From IMG/VR virus record IMGVR_UViG_3300043539_002419, positions 1-21,092 of that record: a DNA stretch of 21,092 nucleotides; one strand, 5' to 3'. Shown here in pieces: positions 9,058 through 18,515 of this stretch. Made by a program: the position numbers and the translations under genes. Numbering within the stretch: position 1 is the first letter of the stretch; each line of letters begins with the position of its first letter. The notes beneath the pieces were generated by a model. The model searched no databases and was not told the DNA's origin. It saw only the letters and a list, made by a program, of their open reading frames with translations. The stretch comes from a virus.

Positions 9058-10848
9058 TTATCTCAATTCTCTCAAGTCGAATGTTCTTACACCATCAACT
9101 GTAATTCTACCGTAGAAACGGTTGTTTACCACCTTCTTAGCGTATCTTGTCATAATACCCTTGATTGGTGTGAAGTTGAATGGATTGTACATTGTAGGAG
9201 TTAATTGTAGAGGTACATACGGTGCGTAAATGTAACCTGTATCAAGTAACGATGTTCCTTTGTGACCTAACAACACTTGGTTTGCAGGGAAGTAAGGGTC
9301 ACGGTAAACCTGATATCTACCAGCCAATGTTCCAACTCTCTCGATACCCATATTGTATTGGTCTTGCTCAGGAGCTGCATTTGAAACGTGGAAGTATTCC
9401 AAGTCATCAAAGATAGCAGATACCTCAGAAGATACTACAATCCAGTTAGCTCCACCTCTAAGTGTAGACTTGTGGATTTGAGCTGAGATTTGGTTGATTG
9501 CTGTGATAAGAGTTTGGTTCCAGTCCTTCTGTGTGTAAGGAACTGCGTTTGAACCTAATCTCTTCCATCCGTTGTAATCCCAACGTAAGTTCCAAGCTGC
9601 CGCTTTTCTTAAGTCTCTTAAGATTTCACGGTCGATTTCAGCTGCCACTTGCTCAGACAACAAAGCTGTTAATTCAGCCTCAGCGTCGATGTTGTGGAAT
9701 GCTGCAACGTCTTGAGCCATTTCAGGAGACCATTGAGCTCTAAGTTTTCTTTCTGTTACAGATACAGTAACTGACTGTAGGTCAAAAGAAACTTCACCAA
9801 TTTTATCTTCGAATTCAAGATTCTTGTAGATTCTGTAAGTAGTAGTGAACGCTTGAGCGTTTGCACTCGTAGAAGAGAATGTTGAACCTGTGTAACCGTC
9901 AATTGAATTAGCACCTACTTCAGCAGGAACCTGTAAATCAACTTCCAAGTAAATCTTACCTTCAGCATCACAAACGTCGTAGTAAGTACCACCATCAGTT
10001 AAACTTTCAGGGAATCCTAATGTTTCGTTTTGACCATACTGAACAATACCTTTACCATATCTTTGAGTTACAACTCTAAATAGGTAATTGTTGTTTGTAT
10101 TCGCAGATGTAGTTATATTTCCTGCAGCACCTCTGATAGTTAAATCTGCTAAGAATTCTTCAGTGTCCATAGGTTGACCGTTAGGACCGATAAGTTTACC
10201 AGCACCATCAGATGCGAAACCTGACATAACCAAAAGAACTTTTCTGTAGTCACCATAATATCCATAACCTGAAACTACTAATTGGTCACCTACCCAAACT
10301 ACAGTTCTGTTACCAGCTGTAATTGAAGAGAATTGACCTTTAGAATAGTCGTAAAGACCTGGTGGGTCTAAAGCTGGTTCGTTACCTTCGTAGAATCTAT
10401 CGTAAAGGTCTTTTTGAGTGTTGTAGTCGTAACCACTGTTTGGTGTTTGACCTGCAGCAGCATTAGGTGAACCGTAAGGAGCCCAGTGCTCGTTAGCGCC
10501 AGCACCTGTGTATGACTGAATGTTTGGTACAAAGTAGAACAACTTACCGATAGGAAGGTTCATAGCTTGTACAGAAACGATATCATTAGCCAAAAGTTTA
10601 GAGAAAACTCTACGTACGATTGGAAACACAACAGTTTCGAAAGAACCTGAGTCAGCGGTAGACGCAGCTTCGTTAATGAGGTATGATGCTTGGTTTTCAT
10701 ATAACTGAGCAACGTTCTCTTTTAGGTGGCCTTTTAAGCCTTCTAGGAAACCTAATTTTTCCCATTTGTTAATAGTATCTTCTTTGATAACTTTAAGGTG
10801 CTTAAGACCAATGTTACCAACAAGACCTGATTCTAATAATGCTCCCAT
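9058..10848 (-). CDS. 23: Major capsid protein, T4 gp23-like
   Basis: A 596-aa protein. The N-terminal 60 residues form a charged helical delta-like segment (INKWEKLGFLEGLKGHLKEN) ending in ASYLINE|AASTADSG, an I-x-E|A site after E60 that corresponds to the T4 gp23 maturation cleavage near residue 65. Next come FETVVFPIVRRVFSKLLAND and VQAMNLPIGKLFYFVPNI, hallmark gp23 lines, and near the end the floor/P-domain strands (PTMYNPFNFTPIKGIMTRYA, then RFYGRITVDGVRTFDL). The middle (about residues 110-340) is a Gly/Tyr/Asn-rich insertion domain, making it longer than T4 gp23 (521 aa). It is the last gene of the minus-strand head block, after gp22, and is followed by a strong terminator. In T4 this protein forms the hexamers of the head shell after chaperone-assisted folding. 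Confidence 0.95.
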   Translation of the reverse strand: MGALLESGLVGNIGLKHLKVIKEDTINKWEKLGFLEGLKGHLKENVAQLYENQASYLINEAASTADSGSFETVVFPIVRRVFSKLLANDIVSVQAMNLPIGKLFYFVPNIQSYTGAGANEHWAPYGSPNAAAGQTPNSGYDYNTQKDLYDRFYEGNEPALDPPGLYDYSKGQFSSITAGNRTVVWVGDQLVVSGYGYYGDYRKVLLVMSGFASDGAGKLIGPNGQPMDTEEFLADLTIRGAAGNITTSANTNNNYLFRVVTQRYGKGIVQYGQNETLGFPESLTDGGTYYDVCDAEGKIYLEVDLQVPAEVGANSIDGYTGSTFSSTSANAQAFTTTYRIYKNLEFEDKIGEVSFDLQSVTVSVTERKLRAQWSPEMAQDVAAFHNIDAEAELTALLSEQVAAEIDREILRDLRKAAAWNLRWDYNGWKRLGSNAVPYTQKDWNQTLITAINQISAQIHKSTLRGGANWIVVSSEVSAIFDDLEYFHVSNAAPEQDQYNMGIERVGTLAGRYQVYRDPYFPANQVLLGHKGTSLLDTGYIYAPYVPLQLTPTMYNPFNFTPIKGIMTRYAKKVVNNRFYGRITVDGVRTFDLRELR

Positions 10849-10877
10849 TTTAGTATTAAATTTTGTTTTTTTTAGTT

Positions 10878-10885
10878 TATTTATT
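10878..10885 (-). promoter_or_regulatory. AATAAATA element upstream of gp23
   Basis: The minus strand reads AATAAATA 29 bases before the capsid ATG, near-identical to the T4 late core TATAAATA and in the T4 sense, unlike the TATTTATW elements before other genes here. The spacer between gp22 and gp23 is only 39 bases and very A-rich, so a chance match is possible. Confidence 0.3.
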
Positions 10886-10887
10886 TT

Positions 10888-12366
10888 TTAGAGTTTTGAC
10901 ATTAAATCTTTAATTCTTAAGAATTGTGGATTTTCATAAGCTCTAGATTCGATTAAACTTGTTGAAGAACCTGAACTTGCTTGGTTGTTGATTTTTCTTT
11001 CAACACTTTCATTAAGTCCTTGTGTCTCTACTTTTGAAAGGTCATCTTTCATTGTTTTGTAGAGTTGTTTTGATTCTTTTAAAGTTTCTGCTGAGTCGAA
11101 TCTTCTAAGAATGTTTATTTTTTCTTTCTTTGTAGTAGAGTGTTCAGTAAACAAACGAGTAGCGTAAGCTAAGTTTGAATTAAAAACAGCAACTTCGTTC
11201 AATTTTTCTCTGAAAATATTTAACGCTTTTCTGTATTCTTCATTCTTTTCTCTAAGCATTTTCATCTCTGCGTTGATAGACTCAACTTTTACACCATTGT
11301 CTGTATAATTGTAATTACGATTATTTGTAACACCTTTTCTCAAACCCCTACCTTCTTTTGAACCAAATCCATAAGTTCTAGCAGCTTCTTTAGTTTCCTT
11401 TTTTTCGTAATCTTTGTAGTGTCCTTTTTCTTCGCCAGCTTTCTTTTCAACACCGTCTACATTCTTACGTCTGTATTCGTGTTTCTTAGAACCATAGTCC
11501 TCTTCCATTTCACCCTCTTTAAATTCGAATTTAGCTTTACCAGTACCCATTTTAGTTGGTCCTTGTTTTTTGTGGTCGTCGAAGCCCTTTTTAGGTAATG
11601 ATTTACCATATTTAAATTTAGGACTTCCCATCCCAACGCCTTTAGGTTTTACAGTCATTTTTGCCTCTTCGAGATTGTAGTCTTCAGAACCTTCTTCCAT
11701 TTCGTCATAAGATTCCTCCATTTCCATACCCTCGTGTGAACTTTCTTCCATTTCATCGTCATCCTCATCCATTACGATTTCATACATAATGTCATCTTCT
11801 TCCATTTCTTCTTCCGTTTCATCTTCATTGTATTCGCCTTCAGCGTACAATGCGTCTAAAACAGCCTCAAGGTCTGTATCCTTTTCATCCAAATAAGATT
11901 CCCCCATTTCCTTTTCCATTTCTTCTAATTCATCTTCCTCCTCTTCATTCATTTTGACGAGGTATTCAACATCTTCATCGGTATCTTTTATGTGAACATC
12001 ATCACCGTCTTTTTTAACGATAATTCCATCCTCATCACCCATACGTTTGAAAATTGCCAAGATTTCTTCATCAGAAGCATCTGTCAAATCAATAGTTTCA
12101 TCTTCATCTTCGAAATCCATATCATCCATTTCATCCGAATCCATTTCTAGTTCATCAGCATCAACATCCATTGAGTCGTCATCGACATCAACATCTGTCA
12201 TTGCATCAAGCTCAATCTCATCTTGTTCAGATAGAGACTCTTTTACCAACTGACTGATTTCTTCCTTCATAGTTGAAGCAAGTATTCCTTTTGCGTTTTC
12301 GGCTATAACATTCTCCACATTTCTCATTTGGAGTAAAGCCTCTTCTACTAAATCTTTTTGCGACAT
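10888..12366 (-). CDS. 22: Prohead core scaffold protein, T4 gp22-like
   Basis: A 492-aa, extremely acidic protein. N-terminal residues 1-50 contain an amphipathic helix and two I/L-x-E protease-type sites (VIAE|N after residue 23, SLSE|Q after residue 47). Residues about 50-235 are long Asp/Glu/Met runs (DDMDFEDEDE, EMEESYDEMEE). Residues about 236-345 are a basic Lys/Gly-rich stretch (FKYGKSLPKKGFDDHKKQGP). Residues 360-430 are a likely coiled coil, and the C-terminus ends in ENPQFLRIKDLMSKL. It lies between protease and capsid genes exactly as gene 22 in T4; the longer, charge-segregated form (T4 gp22 is 269 aa) is unusual. The core protein is expected to be degraded by gp21 before packaging. 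Coiled-coil, acidity and position support the call; direct similarity to T4 gp22 is weak. Confidence 0.8.
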   Translation of the reverse strand: MSQKDLVEEALLQMRNVENVIAENAKGILASTMKEEISQLVKESLSEQDEIELDAMTDVDVDDDSMDVDADELEMDSDEMDDMDFEDEDETIDLTDASDEEILAIFKRMGDEDGIIVKKDGDDVHIKDTDEDVEYLVKMNEEEEDELEEMEKEMGESYLDEKDTDLEAVLDALYAEGEYNEDETEEEMEEDDIMYEIVMDEDDDEMEESSHEGMEMEESYDEMEEGSEDYNLEEAKMTVKPKGVGMGSPKFKYGKSLPKKGFDDHKKQGPTKMGTGKAKFEFKEGEMEEDYGSKKHEYRRKNVDGVEKKAGEEKGHYKDYEKKETKEAARTYGFGSKEGRGLRKGVTNNRNYNYTDNGVKVESINAEMKMLREKNEEYRKALNIFREKLNEVAVFNSNLAYATRLFTEHSTTKKEKINILRRFDSAETLKESKQLYKTMKDDLSKVETQGLNESVERKINNQASSGSSTSLIESRAYENPQFLRIKDLMSKL

Positions 12367-12387: not shown

Positions 12388-12444
12388 CTGCACAAACAAC
12401 AAAAAATTACATTTGTTGAACTACAAATTTTTATAGCAAAAAAA

Positions 12445-12466
12445 AAGAGGAGTAAAAACTCCCCTT
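12445..12466 (-). terminator. Intrinsic terminator after the DUF4494-like gene
   Basis: On the minus strand AAGGGGAGT-TTTT-ACTCCTCTT forms a 9-bp stem with one G-U pair, followed by a run of nine T (12446 down to 12438). The hairpin begins right after the TAA of the 69-aa gene. On the plus strand the wobble becomes an A-C mismatch, so it fits minus-strand use. It separates gp21 and the small gene from gp22-gp23. Confidence 0.8.
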
Positions 12467-12468
12467 TT

Positions 12469-12678
12469 TTATTGAATTACTTCGTCAATTTTACTTTCAA
12501 CAATTGCTGTTATTCTCCATTCGTGTTGAAAACCGCGATATTTTTCTGTTACCTTAGATTCGACATCCGTAGGTGAGTAACCTTTAACAAGTTTTTCTTC
12601 TCTCATTTTTTTTAATCTTCCTGAGTTTTCATCGGGTAACTCATAAACAACTTTTGCTACAAAATATTTTTCATCCAT
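12469..12678 (-). CDS. DUF4494-like small protein
   Basis: A 69-aa protein: KYFVAKVVYELPDENSGRLK, then EEKLVKGYSPTDVESKVTEK and WRITAIVESKIDEVI. The order of strand, 'kk..EeyLVda.s.tEaEa.vt' and a final strand with 'I..v..sKi' matches the DUF4494 pattern known mostly from Bacteroidota genomes and their phages; I know no biochemical function for it. It starts 11 bases after the gp21 stop and is ended by its own terminator. T4 has no counterpart between genes 21 and 22, so this is an accessory of the lineage. Confidence 0.7.
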   Translation of the reverse strand: MDEKYFVAKVVYELPDENSGRLKKMREEKLVKGYSPTDVESKVTEKYRGFQHEWRITAIVESKIDEVIQ

Positions 12679-12689
12679 ATGTTTTAATT

Positions 12690-13397
12690 TTATTTACCCA
12701 AATAATCGGACAATCTTTTCATTAAATCAACTGACTTACCAAAACCTTTTTCTTCCTGATGAACTTTTCTTTCCTCCTCAAGGTTTTCTTCGTAATTATT
12801 TCTATCTTCAGGATTTGAAAAAAGGTATGCTCCTGGTGTGGATGGTGATGAAACTAAATCAAAACATATTAATTCAAAGTCATCCTGAACCTCATTTTGT
12901 TCACCAACTTTTTTTAATGAACCAACACCACGTGATGAAACTCCCATCGTGACACCTTGTCTCATTAGGTTTGCCGCAATATCACCTTTTGTGGATACTA
13001 CACCGCTTTCGTGGAACCCTGGTGAAGTTAATAATTTGAGTTTACCCATAAGAATGTTGTTGTCCCACCACACATCAGTTATTATGTGTGAAACTCTGTC
13101 TAAATCGATTAGTGATGATTCTGGATGGTTTAATTCGGATGTTGATAATCCCTTTTTTATTGCTGTCTTATATCTGTCAGCTTCTCTCTTTAATATTCTC
13201 TCAGGATATACACGACCATTTCTATTTGGTACACCATATTTTTGTAAAACGGCATAAAACTCAAAAGGGTTTCTATAATCAATATCTTTTTGTTCTTTGA
13301 TAAAATCTTCATTCAATCTATCCTTCGGATTTACGAACCCAGCATCCATTTCTATTAGAATGCCCTTACCCGTCTGATTAGGTCCCAAAATTTTCAT
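12690..13397 (-). CDS. 21: Prohead core protease, T4 gp21-like serine protease
   Basis: A 235-aa protein with the fold signature of phage prohead proteases: FYAVLQKYGVPNRNGRVYPE at residues 47-66 (the 'gv.N.NgRvYp' line), the catalytic His in SELNHPE (H91), a following DLDRVSHIITDVWWDNNIL strand pair, and the nucleophile in MGVSSRGVGS (S154 or S155), then DFELICFDLVSSPSTPGAY, another conserved line (probable catalytic or structural Asp). T4 gp21 cleaves scaffold, shell and internal proteins after I/L-x-E and then itself. The C-terminal 35 residues are charged and helical and may be the self-cleaved propeptide. Position between portal-side core genes and scaffold gp22 matches T4. All catalytic elements appear present. 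Confidence 0.92.
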   Translation of the reverse strand: MKILGPNQTGKGILIEMDAGFVNPKDRLNEDFIKEQKDIDYRNPFEFYAVLQKYGVPNRNGRVYPERILKREADRYKTAIKKGLSTSELNHPESSLIDLDRVSHIITDVWWDNNILMGKLKLLTSPGFHESGVVSTKGDIAANLMRQGVTMGVSSRGVGSLKKVGEQNEVQDDFELICFDLVSSPSTPGAYLFSNPEDRNNYEENLEEERKVHQEEKGFGKSVDLMKRLSDYLGK

Positions 13398-13430: not shown

Positions 13431-13880
13431 TTAGATAGTTTGATACGTTTCTGAGTTTTTTGACGATGAAAAATTAAAATGTCTGTTGTTAATTATATTT
13501 TCCCTATAAATTTTTTTTATAATTTTTATTACGGAATCTCTAATTTCATTTGACTTAAAATCTAATAAACAGTTGGTATATAAGTTGATTTCCAAGTTCA
13601 TAAAAGATTTTTTGTCTTTCCTAATCCCACTAGTTCTCAAGTCCAAGTCAACTATAAAATTTTCTTTAAACAATTCTCTATCTAATGATGAAAAAATTGA
13701 ATGTTTTATGGAACGGTTTAAAGTATTAACAACATTACTCCAACTATCTTTGTTTTCCAATGGGTTTACCCAAGTTTGAATGTTTATGTAAATTGATTTA
13801 AGTTCTTTTGAATCAACAGTACCGTAAAATGTTTTAATTGAATCGTATTGATTAATGTTAATTGTTTTTCCCTTCTTCAT
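13431..13880 (-). CDS. Conserved-type hypothetical protein in the head gene block
   Basis: A 149-aa basic protein with an alpha/beta pattern: KSIYINIQTWVNPLENKDSW, then FKENFIVDLDLRTSGIRKDK, KSFMNLEINLYTN, and a helix SNEIRDSVIKIIKKIYREN. I recognise this kind of protein only as an unnamed companion of prohead genes in marine T4-like phages; no catalytic motif is seen. It starts at 13880, upstream of which is an 81-base spacer shared with the divergent bS21 gene, and it ends 33 bases before gp21. Codon use and base composition resemble its neighbours. Confidence 0.75.
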   Translation of the reverse strand: MKKGKTININQYDSIKTFYGTVDSKELKSIYINIQTWVNPLENKDSWSNVVNTLNRSIKHSIFSSLDRELFKENFIVDLDLRTSGIRKDKKSFMNLEINLYTNCLLDFKSNEIRDSVIKIIKKIYRENIINNRHFNFSSSKNSETYQTI

Positions 13881-13961
13881 AGGGTTTTTTTTGATACTAT
13901 GTAGTTTATTTTAATTAAAAATAGTAAATCTTTTTACATATTCCAAATATATGTATGATAT

Positions 13962-14150
13962 ATGTTATTAGTAAAAGTTGATTCAAACATTGAAAAAGCC
14001 TTAAAGACCTTAAAGTCCAAGGTAATCAAAACAAAACAAAACCAAAGATTGGTTGAATTAAAAGAGTATGAAAAAAAATCAGTTAGGAAAAGGGAACAAA
14101 TAAAAGTTGCAAAACACCAACAATATCTTAGGAATCAGTCTGAGAAATAG
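13962..14150 (+). CDS. rpsU: Phage-encoded ribosomal protein bS21
   Basis: The 62-aa product matches bS21 along its length: LLVKVDSNIEKALKTLKSKV, then IKTKQNQRLVELKEYEKKSV and RKREQIKVAKHQQYLRN. The 'IekALK.lK.K..kT', 'k.yeK.SV.kR.qi' and 'A..qQ.lRn' blocks resemble the Bacteroidota form rather than the Arg-tailed enterobacterial form. bS21 sits on the 30S platform beside the anti-Shine-Dalgarno end of 16S rRNA; in Bacteroidota it helps to hide that sequence. Phage copies of bS21 are known from cultivated and metagenomic phages. The gene is the only plus-strand gene inside the minus-strand head block, and its last 23 bases overlap the end of the convergent core-protein gene. No Shine-Dalgarno sequence precedes the ATG. 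Confidence 0.9.
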   Translation: MLLVKVDSNIEKALKTLKSKVIKTKQNQRLVELKEYEKKSVRKREQIKVAKHQQYLRNQSEK

Positions 14151-14838
14151 ATTCTTCCAACTGTTTCAATCTAATGTAGTTGACCTGTTCGTAATTCTCA
14201 TCCTTAATTTTTTGAATAGTTTCAACTAACTTTTGTTTCATATCATCTTCACTTTCTTTTTCTAAAAGATTTTCTAATTTAGAAACTGTTGACTCTTTAA
14301 TTTCAAAAAATTCTTTTTCTAAATCTTCAGGTCGACTAGCTAAAATATGAAATACTTTCTTTTTAGTTGATTCATCTAAATTTTCCAAATAATTTTGAAT
14401 AGTCTGATTTGCAATGTTTACCATCGACTTTAAAGGAATTTCGATTGATTCATTTACGGGAGTTGTATTCGATTTTAATATTTCCAATATTTTCTTTTTA
14501 GAACCAATTCTTTCTATCAAATTAATATTTTTAAAATAAACCAAATTGTCCAAATCCTGATAATTGTTTTCAACCTCTCTTCCTATTTTTGGTAAACTAA
14601 CATTTTCAATCAAATGTCTAATTAATTCAATACCTTCATTGAGGTATAATTCGGCATCTTCGGATGACAAACCTTGTGGTTTGTACAAGTCATCGTACAA
14701 AGAGTACAATTTTGAAAAATTTTTATTTTCGAGAATATTGTGTCTAAATTCTCTGAGAGTTTTTTTGAAATGTGCAGAGTTATTGTAGGACTCTACTAAG
14801 TTTTTTTCAACAACAGATTTTATTTGTCCAAAGGTCAT
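14128..14838 (-). CDS. Probable prohead core protein in the gp67/68 position
   Basis: A 236-aa helical, charged protein between portal and protease genes, where T4 has the core genes 67 and 68. I place the start at the ATG at 14838: the frame extends six codons farther to a TTG, but the ATG gives an N-terminus MTFGQIKSVVEKNLVE|SYNN, an amphipathic helix ending in L-V-E that matches the prohead protease rule, and leaves a 16-base leader after a TATTTATT element. The middle contains IEIPLKSMVNIANQTIQNYL and NLDESTKKKVFHILASRPED, and the C-terminal 70 residues are Glu/Lys-rich with coiled-coil character. No direct similarity to T4 gp67 or gp68 is claimed; the role is inferred from position, composition and the cleavage-like N-terminus. 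Its 3' end overlaps the bS21 gene on the other strand. Confidence 0.75.
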   Translation of the reverse strand: MTFGQIKSVVEKNLVESYNNSAHFKKTLREFRHNILENKNFSKLYSLYDDLYKPQGLSSEDAELYLNEGIELIRHLIENVSLPKIGREVENNYQDLDNLVYFKNINLIERIGSKKKILEILKSNTTPVNESIEIPLKSMVNIANQTIQNYLENLDESTKKKVFHILASRPEDLEKEFFEIKESTVSKLENLLEKESEDDMKQKLVETIQKIKDENYEQVNYIRLKQLEESISQTDS

Positions 14839-14854
14839 CTTAAGGGGATTTTTC

Positions 14855-14862
14855 AATAAATA
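14855..14862 (-). promoter_or_regulatory. TATTTATT element upstream of the gp67/68-like gene
   Basis: The minus strand reads CCTAATATTTATTGAAAAAT; TATTTATT follows the portal stop codon at once and ends 16 bases before the ATG at 14838. Candidate late promoter by recurrence and position. Confidence 0.4.
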
Positions 14863-16707
14863 TTAGGAATTAAGTAACTTATCCAGTTCTTCTCCAATTT
14901 TTCCTAAACTTTGTTGTCCCATTCCTAAATCTAACCATTTTTTACTATACATATCCGACTCTAAAAGGATATTCATATCCCTATTTTTAGCTGATTCAGG
15001 TGTGATTTCACCTGGTGGCGGAGATGGTGGTTCAATACCTCCAAGTTCTCCAGTTGGTGGTACTTCACCGCCTAAATCTCCTCCCGCAAATGCTCCACCT
15101 AATTCAGGTGGTGCTCCAGTTTCATCTCCACTTGGTGGTGGTGTTCCTGCAGGTGCTTTATTTGTACCGTATAGTCTATCAATATTATCAAATATACCTG
15201 TCTTAACAATAACGGTTGGTGTCTGTTTGAGTTCTTCACCAACCGCTTTTTCCATTCTTTGTTGAAGTAAATCGACTCTGATTTCATCGTCTGACCATTG
15301 GAACAAATGTTTCTTGGCCCAAGTTGATGATGTTGCAGCAATACCTGTACCAGGGTCAGAAACCATATCTTTATATAATAACATTTTTTCTTTCCAAATG
15401 TCAATCTTAAGAAGGTCAGCCTGTGTGGAAGGGTTTGTAAGTCCTAAAGTAAAATTTGAAATTTCTTCGTCGAATCCCAATAAGAACAAATGAATAATTG
15501 CAATTTTATTCAACTCTTGAACCATAGATTTCTGAATTCTATTGATTGTTCTTGCAAAACGAATATCCATAAGAGCTAAACTCTTACCATCACCAACCAC
15601 ATCCTCAAATCCAAGGAATGCCTTAGGAATACGAAGAGCCGTAACAAGTTTCTTTTGTAGGTACTCGATATCGGCAATTTCTGAAAGGTTTTGTGCACCA
15701 GCCAAAGTGTCAATTGGGTTTGGCGCTGCAGGGTCTCTTACAGGAATAAAATAATCTTGGTCAACAGCCATTTGATTAAATCTCATATCAACCGAACCTG
15801 TTTTACTATCAACAATTTGTTCTCTTTTAAACTTGTTGGCGACACGTTGTACATAAGCCTCAACGTCATCGTCATTCATATTTCCTACGTAGACCTTAAA
15901 CACTCTACGTTCTGGGGCTCTTGAAGTACGGTAAATTAACATCGCGTCCTCCGATAATAGAAGTTGTTTCCAAATTCTACGGGACTTTTCCAACATTGAC
16001 GTACCATACGGCAATTTTCTATCGTCACCTAATAGTCTAAAGTGACCAATTTCCCAAGGTTGAAATTCCATATTTCTGGCTTTCCAATAAAATTTCAATC
16101 CTTTTTGTTCATCTTCTTTTTTGATTTCATAGTTAGAACCATTCATCAAACCTCTTTCGATTCTTTCAACTTCAACATTTGGTAATTGTTGACAACCAAT
16201 AACCCCCCCTTCAGGGTCCAATCTCAAGTAGATGAAGTTGTCACCATACTTACAGGTGTTTCGTGTCCACATAGGTAAGTTGGTGTTAATATCTAAGTTG
16301 TTATTGAATAAATCGGCTAAAACAGATTTAATTCTTTTAGACTCAGAATAAATTTGAAGTACAAAACCATCCTCGTTAGGAGTGGTAGATTCTTCGGCAT
16401 AGATATCAAGTGCTGCAGAAATCTCAGGGGTATATTCCATTGATTCATAATCGTAATATGATGCCAATCTGTTTGGTTCGTAATAAACCGCCTGAGTGTA
16501 TAAATTACTTTCTACTTTGGCAAATTGACCAGCCAAATACGATGTTTGACGTGCCTGTAATTTCTCTTTTTCGTATTCGGCTTTATCAGTAGTTCTGAGA
16601 AGTTCTTTTTTGTCAAACTTATAAACAGGAAAATCCTGACTCATAAGTGCGTCAGGTCCCATAGCTCTACCTAATCGTTGCCATATAGTAATATTTTTAT
16701 CACTCAT
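14863..16707 (-). CDS. 20: Portal vertex protein, T4 gp20-like
   Basis: A 614-aa protein with lines typical of T4-type portals: TPEISAALDIYAEESTTPNE at residues 93-112, LPMWTRNTCKYGDNFIYLRL, WEIGHFRLLGDDRKLPYGTS, the long helix with LLSEDAMLIYRTSRAPERRV, and FLGFEDVVGDGKSLALMDIR. Twelve copies form the ring at one head vertex through which DNA enters, on which head assembly starts and to which the tail joins. Compared with T4 gp20 (524 aa) it has a C-terminal Gly/Pro-rich, low-complexity extension at roughly residues 515-575 (GTPPPSGDETGAPPELGG and similar), then a short helical end preceded by an L-L-E|S protease-like site. It follows the terminase gene with a 38-base spacer holding a TATTTATT element and precedes the core protein gene. 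Confidence 0.94.
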   Translation of the reverse strand: MSDKNITIWQRLGRAMGPDALMSQDFPVYKFDKKELLRTTDKAEYEKEKLQARQTSYLAGQFAKVESNLYTQAVYYEPNRLASYYDYESMEYTPEISAALDIYAEESTTPNEDGFVLQIYSESKRIKSVLADLFNNNLDINTNLPMWTRNTCKYGDNFIYLRLDPEGGVIGCQQLPNVEVERIERGLMNGSNYEIKKEDEQKGLKFYWKARNMEFQPWEIGHFRLLGDDRKLPYGTSMLEKSRRIWKQLLLSEDAMLIYRTSRAPERRVFKVYVGNMNDDDVEAYVQRVANKFKREQIVDSKTGSVDMRFNQMAVDQDYFIPVRDPAAPNPIDTLAGAQNLSEIADIEYLQKKLVTALRIPKAFLGFEDVVGDGKSLALMDIRFARTINRIQKSMVQELNKIAIIHLFLLGFDEEISNFTLGLTNPSTQADLLKIDIWKEKMLLYKDMVSDPGTGIAATSSTWAKKHLFQWSDDEIRVDLLQQRMEKAVGEELKQTPTVIVKTGIFDNIDRLYGTNKAPAGTPPPSGDETGAPPELGGAFAGGDLGGEVPPTGELGGIEPPSPPPGEITPESAKNRDMNILLESDMYSKKWLDLGMGQQSLGKIGEELDKLLNS

Positions 16708-16745: not shown

Positions 16746-18515
16746 CTACTTAGGACCAAACAACCATTTATATTGTTCATAATCATTTCTGGTTGGTGTA
16801 TAGTTTTTGCTATTTTTGGTCATTGAACCAGGAGTTTGAGGTACTGAAGGATTAAAAAATTTAGATTGGTCTTTATTTTCAGAAACCATAGTAGTCCAAG
16901 AATCTAACATAGATTTTGTATGGTTTTCTACTTTACTCAGAGATGGGAATGCTGCTTCTGCTGCAAAACAAGCCATAGAAATTCCCATAATACAATCATC
17001 GTGGTGACCCCTTTGATGGTCTGGTCTTCCGTTTATATACACGAAAGTTCCCATTTCATTTAAAAGTCTTGAGGAACGTATTTGGAATTTGTGTCTTATT
17101 GCCTCCTCAAATGAAGCGATTATTTGAACCCTTTTTGCGTTGAAATTGATACCAGGTATTTTTTCTTTTAATTTGGGGTCATACTTCCATTTATTAGCAA
17201 AATCAACCCCTTCAATATAAAAGTTCTCATATCCAAGTTCTTGTAATTTTCGTGCGGTGGCAACACCCATACCTCCTGTTAAGTCAGTTATGCAAAGTGC
17301 ACTATACATATTTCCCCATTTGTAGGCAATTTCCGCCAATACATCAGGTGGTATTTTACCAACAAATTCTAAGACTTGCTCACGTGCATCAAAATCGATA
17401 ATTTGAATACTTGAAAAATCTTCAGAGTCTCCTCTCGACACGTCGATACCCATAACATATCTGTGTCCATTTTCAGGTTCTTTCCAAATCCATAATTGAT
17501 TTGCCATCAATTTTGCGTTTGGGTCTTTAATGTAATTTTGAGAAATGTCTTGTAAAGTATTTGAATCAAATACGTTGTCGCCTGAACCTAAGAAATTACA
17601 CTCTAATTCTTGAGCAACTTTTCTTCTGTCGTATTTGAGTTTTTTAACCATCGCCTCAAACCAACTAGAGCAAGGTTTATAACCATCTGAAACGTAAATT
17701 TGTAGGCTTATCAAACTTCTGTTTTGAATATCAATATCTTGTAAACTTATAATATCTTCAGGACTGTATTGTTCTTTGTTGAGCAAATAATGTACAATAT
17801 CTTTGGTTTTTACCATATACAAATCTTTAGTATATCGGGGGTCCCTATACCAATACATTTCGGTAATTTTAAAATCGTTCATTCCCCTTAATGCTTGGTC
17901 GTAAATTTCATAGTAAATCGGGTCATAACCATTAGGGGTTGAAATTACAATAACTTTACCGCCTGTAGAAAGTGACGCCATACAAGCCGCCCAAAAATCA
18001 CTGTCAGCCTCGATAAACGCAGCCTCATCAAATATTAACACGGTTGGACTATAACCACGAAGTGCGTCTTTAGAAGTTGCCACAGCTTTAACTTCACAAC
18101 CATTAGATAGTTTAAAATGACGTGCAGAATTCTTTTCACCTGAAAATCCAATACCAACCCAATTTGGCCACTGTTCAGTAAAAGCTCTGATTTTGTTGGC
18201 AAATTCTACAGATGTTTCTAATTTGTTTGCAATAATAAGAATTTTTTCAGGTTTTTCTTTTCTTGCAAATGCCACTTTTTTACTTGCCCAAGCAGCGGTC
18301 ACTGTAGAAACACCTGCTTGACGGTATTTTAAAGCAATATTTTCATTAAAATTTTCATAATCCTCAATCAATAATACTTGGTCTTGAAATAACTCAAGTG
18401 GTACATATTTGGAGACAGTATTATCAAATGTTTGTAAATAAGTTCTCAAAGCGTATGGAGTACTATTCATACACTTTTTATACTCAATTAAAAGTTGTTC
18501 TCTTGTAAGACTCAT
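16746..18515 (-). CDS. terL: Large terminase subunit, T4 gp17-like
   Basis: A 589-aa packaging motor and nuclease. ATPase part: Walker A-like KYRQAGVST at residues 63-71 (no Lys in the usual P-loop position), Walker B VLIFDEAAF with D163/E164, and coupling motif ISTPNG at 191-196. Nuclease part, RNase H-like: D358 in VMGIDVSRGDSEDF, D411 in ALCITDLTGGMG, and D506/D507 in GHHDDCIMG, the three acidic positions expected for metal binding. In T4 the enzyme docks on the portal, pumps DNA into the prohead and cuts the concatemer. The N-terminal region before Walker A is about 100 residues shorter than in T4 gp17 while the total is close to T4 (610 aa). The start ATG overlaps the stop of the upstream 429-aa gene (TAATG), implying coupled translation. 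Confidence 0.95.
   Translation of the reverse strand: MSLTREQLLIEYKKCMNSTPYALRTYLQTFDNTVSKYVPLELFQDQVLLIEDYENFNENIALKYRQAGVSTVTAAWASKKVAFARKEKPEKILIIANKLETSVEFANKIRAFTEQWPNWVGIGFSGEKNSARHFKLSNGCEVKAVATSKDALRGYSPTVLIFDEAAFIEADSDFWAACMASLSTGGKVIVISTPNGYDPIYYEIYDQALRGMNDFKITEMYWYRDPRYTKDLYMVKTKDIVHYLLNKEQYSPEDIISLQDIDIQNRSLISLQIYVSDGYKPCSSWFEAMVKKLKYDRRKVAQELECNFLGSGDNVFDSNTLQDISQNYIKDPNAKLMANQLWIWKEPENGHRYVMGIDVSRGDSEDFSSIQIIDFDAREQVLEFVGKIPPDVLAEIAYKWGNMYSALCITDLTGGMGVATARKLQELGYENFYIEGVDFANKWKYDPKLKEKIPGINFNAKRVQIIASFEEAIRHKFQIRSSRLLNEMGTFVYINGRPDHQRGHHDDCIMGISMACFAAEAAFPSLSKVENHTKSMLDSWTTMVSENKDQSKFFNPSVPQTPGSMTKNSKNYTPTRNDYEQYKWLFGPK

Follow-up and report, generated by a model that had tools for sequence, protein, structure and literature searches.

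Phage-encoded ribosomal protein bS21 is known from freshwater Bacteroidetes myoviruses (Chen et al. 2022, ISME Commun, PMC9723584), in which a reversed bS21 gene lies between two hypothetical genes and is flanked by terL and the genes for portal, protease and major capsid protein (MCP). Position 54 of these proteins is Tyr or another aromatic residue, with a few His, and the phage proteins fall apart from, yet nearest to, the Bacteroidetes copies. In metatranscriptomes of the same study, late-stage phages expressed bS21 together with their structural genes, and its level was near that of an opposite-strand neighbour; the reads over the convergent overlap may not be strand-resolved. Pelagibacter phage HTVC008M (Mizuno et al. 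2019, PMC6375957) is also a large myovirus with a bS21 gene, set apart by that paper's description of a separate acquisition from an alphaproteobacterial host. The same authors reported purifying selection on virus-encoded ribosomal protein genes, and entry of the pelagiphage bS21 into E. coli ribosomes with a drop of translation to about 5%. On the host side, Tyr54 of Flavobacterium johnsoniae bS21 stacks on A1534, and the Y54A change partly frees the anti-Shine-Dalgarno (anti-SD) sequence (McNutt et al. 2023, PMC9976891). The F. johnsoniae bS21 gene, rpsU, carries an extended Shine-Dalgarno (SD) sequence, and ribosomes without bS21 translate it better, an autoregulatory loop.

The locus described here lies on a 21,092-base virus fragment from IMG/VR, the whole of which is called the window below. 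Compared with the portions of Chen et al. (PMC9723584) used here, nothing essential differs: the reversed gene between two hypothetical genes, the surrounding head genes, the class of residue at position 54 and the placement of the protein relative to Bacteroidetes copies all recur. That paper already describes the gene with its orientation and context, an aromatic residue at position 54, transcription late in infection and the hypothesis of a ribosome swap. What we add is modest detail: the absence of an SD, a near-universal gene overlap, one natural absence of bS21, and a phage-specific motif in a near-leaderless register. Those portions of the paper held neither a tail-to-tail overlap, a promoter motif, a near-leaderless register nor a bS21-less relative with both flanks, and no statement on SD absence or escape from autoregulation. 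With respect to the host system (McNutt et al., PMC9976891), the phage and Flavobacterium proteins share family, length and the position contacting the 16S tail. They differ in the sequence of the N-terminal helix and in control, the phage gene having none of the extended SD through which host rpsU is autoregulated. A cultivated relative, Flavobacterium phage vB_FspM_immuto_2-6A (immuto), has the same terminase-portal-protease-core-MCP order and TATTTAT motifs upstream of its genes. It differs from the window in that all its head genes are on one strand and its portal is just 36% identical; within the 50-kb region examined, neither bS21 nor homologues of the 149-aa and 236-aa genes described below were detected.

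The bS21 gene and its surroundings

The window holds the T4-like head block of a Bacteroidota-type myovirus, with the following features.

9058-10848, minus strand: major capsid protein gp23 (PF07068, E 8e-74)
10875-10881, minus strand: AATAAAC motif upstream of the major capsid gene
10888-12366, minus strand: acidic protein, prohead core/scaffold by its position between protease and gp23; TATTTAT at -21
12690-13397, minus strand: prohead protease, peptidase S77 (PF03420, E 1.4e-23)
13431-13880, minus strand: 149-aa conserved protein, divergent neighbour of bS21
13881-13961, no strand: 81-nt intergenic region between the divergent bS21 (plus) and 149-aa (minus) genes, presumably holding both promoters
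13904-13910, minus strand: AATAAAC motif at -30 of the 149-aa gene
13950-13956, plus strand: TATGTAT, one mismatch from TATTTAT, at -12 from the bS21 ATG; putative promoter element that would yield a near-leaderless mRNA
13962-14150, plus strand: coding sequence of the phage bS21; 62 aa from an ATG, SD-free, with His52 in the column of F. johnsoniae Tyr54
14128-14150, no strand: 23-nt tail-to-tail overlap of bS21 and the 236-aa gene
14128-14856, minus strand: conserved protein annotated as 242 aa, likely ATG at 14838 (236 aa)
14863-16707, minus strand: T4-like portal protein gp20 (PF07230, E 4.5e-74)
16746-18515, minus strand: terminase large subunit

An earlier note on this DNA had called the gene a full-length, Bacteroidota-like bS21. 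A complete 62-aa frame with an ATG occupies exactly 13962-14150 on the plus strand and translates to MLLVKVDSNIEKALKTLKSKVIKTKQNQRLVELKEYEKKSVRKREQIKVAKHQQYLRNQSEK, and its tree placement (below) agrees with the Bacteroidota-like character. In a profile search, residues 4-52 matched positions 2-52 of the 55 in Pfam Ribosomal_S21 (PF01165) with E 1.6e-5; the score of 25 bits is slightly below the 27-bit cut-off, and the match to NCBIfam TIGR00030 was also below cut-off (17.5 vs 28.95). The top PDB sequence matches were the bS21 chains 9i5v and 7jil, the latter from F. johnsoniae. Six of eight syntenic relatives tested passed the Pfam cut-off, at 28.5-37.1 bits, and the two below it belong to the clades nearest to the window. 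Since most of these same-slot relatives score above the cut-off, the window frame is not a chance one. Judged on such sequence matches, assignment to the bS21 family is safe, though the window copy is diverged.

The neighbours of bS21 from MCP to terminase all lie on the minus strand, in line with the earlier description of the neighbours. The same note had placed bS21 between the core-protein and 149-aa genes; its true flanks are the 149-aa gene and the gene of about 236 aa, and the next neighbours outward are protease and portal, not the core protein. Its wording 'antisense inside the head-assembly block' holds for the opposite strand; bS21 does not lie within another gene, having a slot of its own and a 23-nt overlap with the 3' end of the 236-aa gene. 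The likely start of the 242-aa frame at 14838, giving about 236 aa, follows from the lengths of its homologues (231-237 aa). The 149-aa protein is highly conserved, with the motifs IVDLDLRTSG and GKKSFxNLE, and its AF2 model (pLDDT 89) is alpha/beta. Foldseek against the PDB gave no match at E <=0.001, the best VIA-align Z of 7.3 concerned only common alpha/beta folds so that no function was assigned, and the sole clear match was an uncharacterised Myoviridae sp. ctPuP5 protein. A strong terminator-like hairpin of 13 pairs (12441-12470, minus strand) lies just downstream of a 69-aa gene, which comes after the protease gene in minus-strand order, and before the core gene. A search for Rfam elements found none.

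The arrangement is conserved. Scanning viral contigs yielded at least 558 bS21 relatives and at least 600 portal relatives. Among fetched loci, bS21 and the portal lay on opposite strands in 143/143 cases having a portal; the same held for bS21 and the protease in 139/139, the 149-aa gene in 145/145 and the 236-aa gene in 148/148, counts that are not independent, as the sets have contigs in common. The distance from bS21 to the portal was nearly always 718-784 nt. In a further set, collected by matches to the 149-aa gene with bS21 playing no part in the search, all 78 testable loci contained bS21, reversed in each. The tail-to-tail overlap with the 236-aa gene, of 4-26 nt, was present in 139 of 140 loci, and its lengths recur among relatives. 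With genes overlapping in this way, moving or inverting bS21 would be costly, which may be a simple reason for the fixed orientation and needs no special timing. Portal loci without a bS21 match were cut off by contig ends in all cases but one, a close relative (L153) in which both flanking genes are present with no bS21 between them; given this locus, the gene may not be strictly essential. Where bS21 would lie, the gap of L153 (10501-10780) has a terminator-like hairpin with a T run after it. In another relative (L140, 7388-7855) an insertion of about 470 nt with one long open frame separates portal and 236-aa gene.

Ancestry and translation start of the phage gene

In a tree of 114 bS21 proteins, resting on 64 columns only and with many forks open, all 52 phage rows, sampled from one family by design, formed a single clade (SH-aLRT 99). 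Tree building with Bacteroidota and phage copies, which the earlier note had proposed, thus placed the phage proteins inside bS21: their clade, on a long branch, is nested in the Tyr54-type Bacteroidota clade (SH-aLRT 95), next to but outside Flavobacterium. Most likely, the gene was gained once from a Bacteroidota host lineage and then inherited vertically in one large freshwater T4-like myovirus family. The nearest isolates by portal include Flavobacterium phages, at 36-37% identity, the other being a Microcystis phage; together with the bS21 ancestry this suggests that the window is probably from a freshwater phage of a Bacteroidota host. One bacterial bS21 without an SD (L304, from the Bacteroidota-phylum genome G067) sits loosely near the phage clade on a long branch; it may be either a relative of the donor in the host lineage or a copy carried by a prophage.

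The phage copies are under purifying selection: dN was 0.045-0.059 against a dS of 0.62-0.72, values confined to comparisons within the window clade, cross-clade comparisons of equal-length unaligned sequences having been discarded. In the column of F. johnsoniae Tyr54, 62 of 80 phage proteins have Tyr and 18 have His, among them the window with His52; Tyr was found in 45/45 distinct proteins of the Flavobacterium set, and mostly Arg elsewhere in the phylum sample. A reading of His52 as loss of the 16S-tail contact was rejected given the recurrence of His in the phage copies and its listing among the ring residues by Chen et al. (PMC9723584). Sequestration of the anti-SD by the His-bearing window protein may nevertheless be weaker than with Tyr. 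The N-terminal helix differs consistently between phage (consensus LKTLKSKVIKTKQ) and host (LKRYKRKFDKTGT), a difference also present in Chen et al. (PMC9723584).

We then scored SD sequences as the pairing energy of the 20 nt upstream of a start with the 16S tail. All 80 Flavobacterium rpsU genes were at or below -10 kcal/mol (mean -19.6), against none of 86 distinct phage bS21 genes at or below -7 kcal/mol (median -0.4; window +0.2). In a phylum-wide sample of bacterial bS21 genes 35/50 were at or below -7 kcal/mol. All these energies rest on a single canonical 16S tail, so that hosts with the alternative anti-SD would be underscored. The window bS21 is therefore missing the extended strong SD of the autoregulated Flavobacteriales rpsU. 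The window genes in general also mostly lack an SD, as the earlier note had claimed: 1/24 starts reaches -7 kcal/mol.

By its extended SD, host rpsU ties bS21 synthesis to bS21-depleted ribosomes, and no phage relative examined has that signal. Having no SD, the phage copy would be made by bS21-replete ribosomes, outside the host loop; with Flavobacterium as a proxy for the host, it should thus escape bS21 autoregulation. McNutt et al. (PMC9976891), in the portion consulted, speculate otherwise on phage bS21, namely that host autoregulation could counter the phage.

Upstream motifs and expression timing

On contigs of two relatives (150 and 140 kb; L242-L256), 81 of 275 genes had TATTTAT upstream, where 9.1 were expected; the reverse complement was found for 16. 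It was similarly enriched in phage immuto (17/60 vs 1.8). A role as a host promoter was rejected, since the motif is not enriched upstream of Flavobacterium genes (9/224 vs 7.8 expected), where the host-type TATTTG is (52 vs 10.7 expected). Distances from the motif start to the ATG fell at -11 to -13 in 30 of 82 cases and at -17 to -27 in about 36, with only two at -14 to -16. Among orthologous pairs with the near position in either member, both had it in 5/6. In the window and the family TATTTAT precedes the core, protease, 236-aa and portal genes; the window sites lie upstream of 1239(+), 5570(+), 8707(-), 12366(-), 13397(-) and 16707(-).

The TATGTAT of the window bS21 is weak by position weight matrix (2.2, below the 95% null of 7.1). 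Of 76 distinct relatives, 55 had TATTTAT with at most one mismatch at -13 to -11 of bS21; after thinning the figure was 16/32, against 1.7 in shuffles (sd 1.3, maximum 6). The T4 late promoter is TATAAATA, with transcription starting about 6 nt downstream. From its sequence distribution TATTTAT is a predicted phage late promoter, and if it works like the T4 element, the near class would give leaderless or near-leaderless mRNAs. A search of open-licence literature, which is no proof of novelty, found nothing linking TATTTAT, leaderless mRNAs and Bacteroidota phages. Sigma-70 promoters around bS21 were also considered and rejected, with 14 sites, fewer than the 18.8 in shuffles.

The earlier note had read the separate orientation of bS21 as a sign of timing apart from the head genes. 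The published late co-expression (PMC9723584) and the degenerate copy of a motif class common to the head genes do not support a separate timing.

Possible roles of the phage bS21

Replacement of host bS21 by the phage copy is an already published hypothesis (PMC9723584, PMC6375957) and is plausible. The best explanation overall, which we hold to be probable by a modest measure, is that a late phage bS21 joins the host 30S and keeps the 16S tail sequestered, free of autoregulation. Promoters of the phage's own class would drive its late synthesis alongside the virion genes; the protein would enter host 30S subunits in place of host bS21, a step that we infer for the window copy, and would go on sequestering the 16S 3' tail, which would let the ribosomes translate SD-less messages efficiently. 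Its own SD-free message would be translated by ordinary bS21-replete ribosomes and not be throttled as ribosomes fill. The comparison with rpsU sharpens the swap idea into a testable form: without an SD, the phage gene is predicted to go on supplying bS21 even when ribosomes are already replete with it. The missing autoregulatory SD, the retention of an aromatic residue or His at position 54, and the fact that F. johnsoniae requires bS21 to initiate efficiently where an mRNA lacks an SD (PMC9976891) would also suit a phage copy that supplies extra bS21 to complete new or bS21-poor ribosomes late, their specificity unchanged. However, the long phage branch and the consistent N-terminal differences exceed the needs of a simple supplement, and we consider this possible but rather doubtful. 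The same N-terminal differences, near the mRNA exit, argue for a published hypothesis in which ribosomes are reprogrammed to prefer phage late messages, as do the many phage genes with TATTTAT at 4-6 nt from the ATG, an arrangement that host genes do not show in excess. Host and phage messages are nonetheless alike in lacking SD (PMC9976891), so that this lack cannot discriminate phage messages and selectivity needs another basis, for which a leaderless start is one candidate. Moreover, immuto has TATTTAT with no bS21 detected; motif and phage bS21 are thus at least separable, and the motif does not require the protein. Reprogramming seems unlikely to us on balance.

The drop to about 5% of normal translation with pelagiphage bS21 in E. 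coli (PMC6375957), from the sole functional test of a phage bS21 that we found, fits poisoning or host mismatch as well as reprogramming. It could also point to host shut-off, the phage protein replacing the host copy and lowering translation of host messages rather than favouring those of the phage. But this test was cross-phylum, a late-expressed shut-off gene would harm virion protein synthesis when it is most needed, and strong purifying selection and the kept residue 54 point to working ribosomes, making shut-off very improbable. A bS21 that is packaged or acts in head assembly would account for its fixed position among head genes in the relatives, and packaging was raised by Chen et al. 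(PMC9723584); yet the sequence constraint is that of a ribosomal protein, 16S-contact residue included, and the tail-to-tail overlap with the 236-aa gene may alone hold bS21 in place. We regard such a virion or extraribosomal role as the least likely of all.

A wider scheme may be drawn, in which TATTTAT drives a late system of leaderless mRNAs and an SD-free, near-leaderless, autoregulation-free bS21 adapts host ribosomes to them; it is speculative and, taken whole, quite improbable. For uncultivated Bacteroidota phages, the motif itself offers a means of predicting which genes are late and which mRNAs may be leaderless. On the contigs of the two relatives another motif, AATAAAC, was also directional, being found in 22/275 upstream regions against 7.1 expected and 2 for its reverse complement. 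It lies about 25-35 nt upstream of both the 149-aa and MCP genes.
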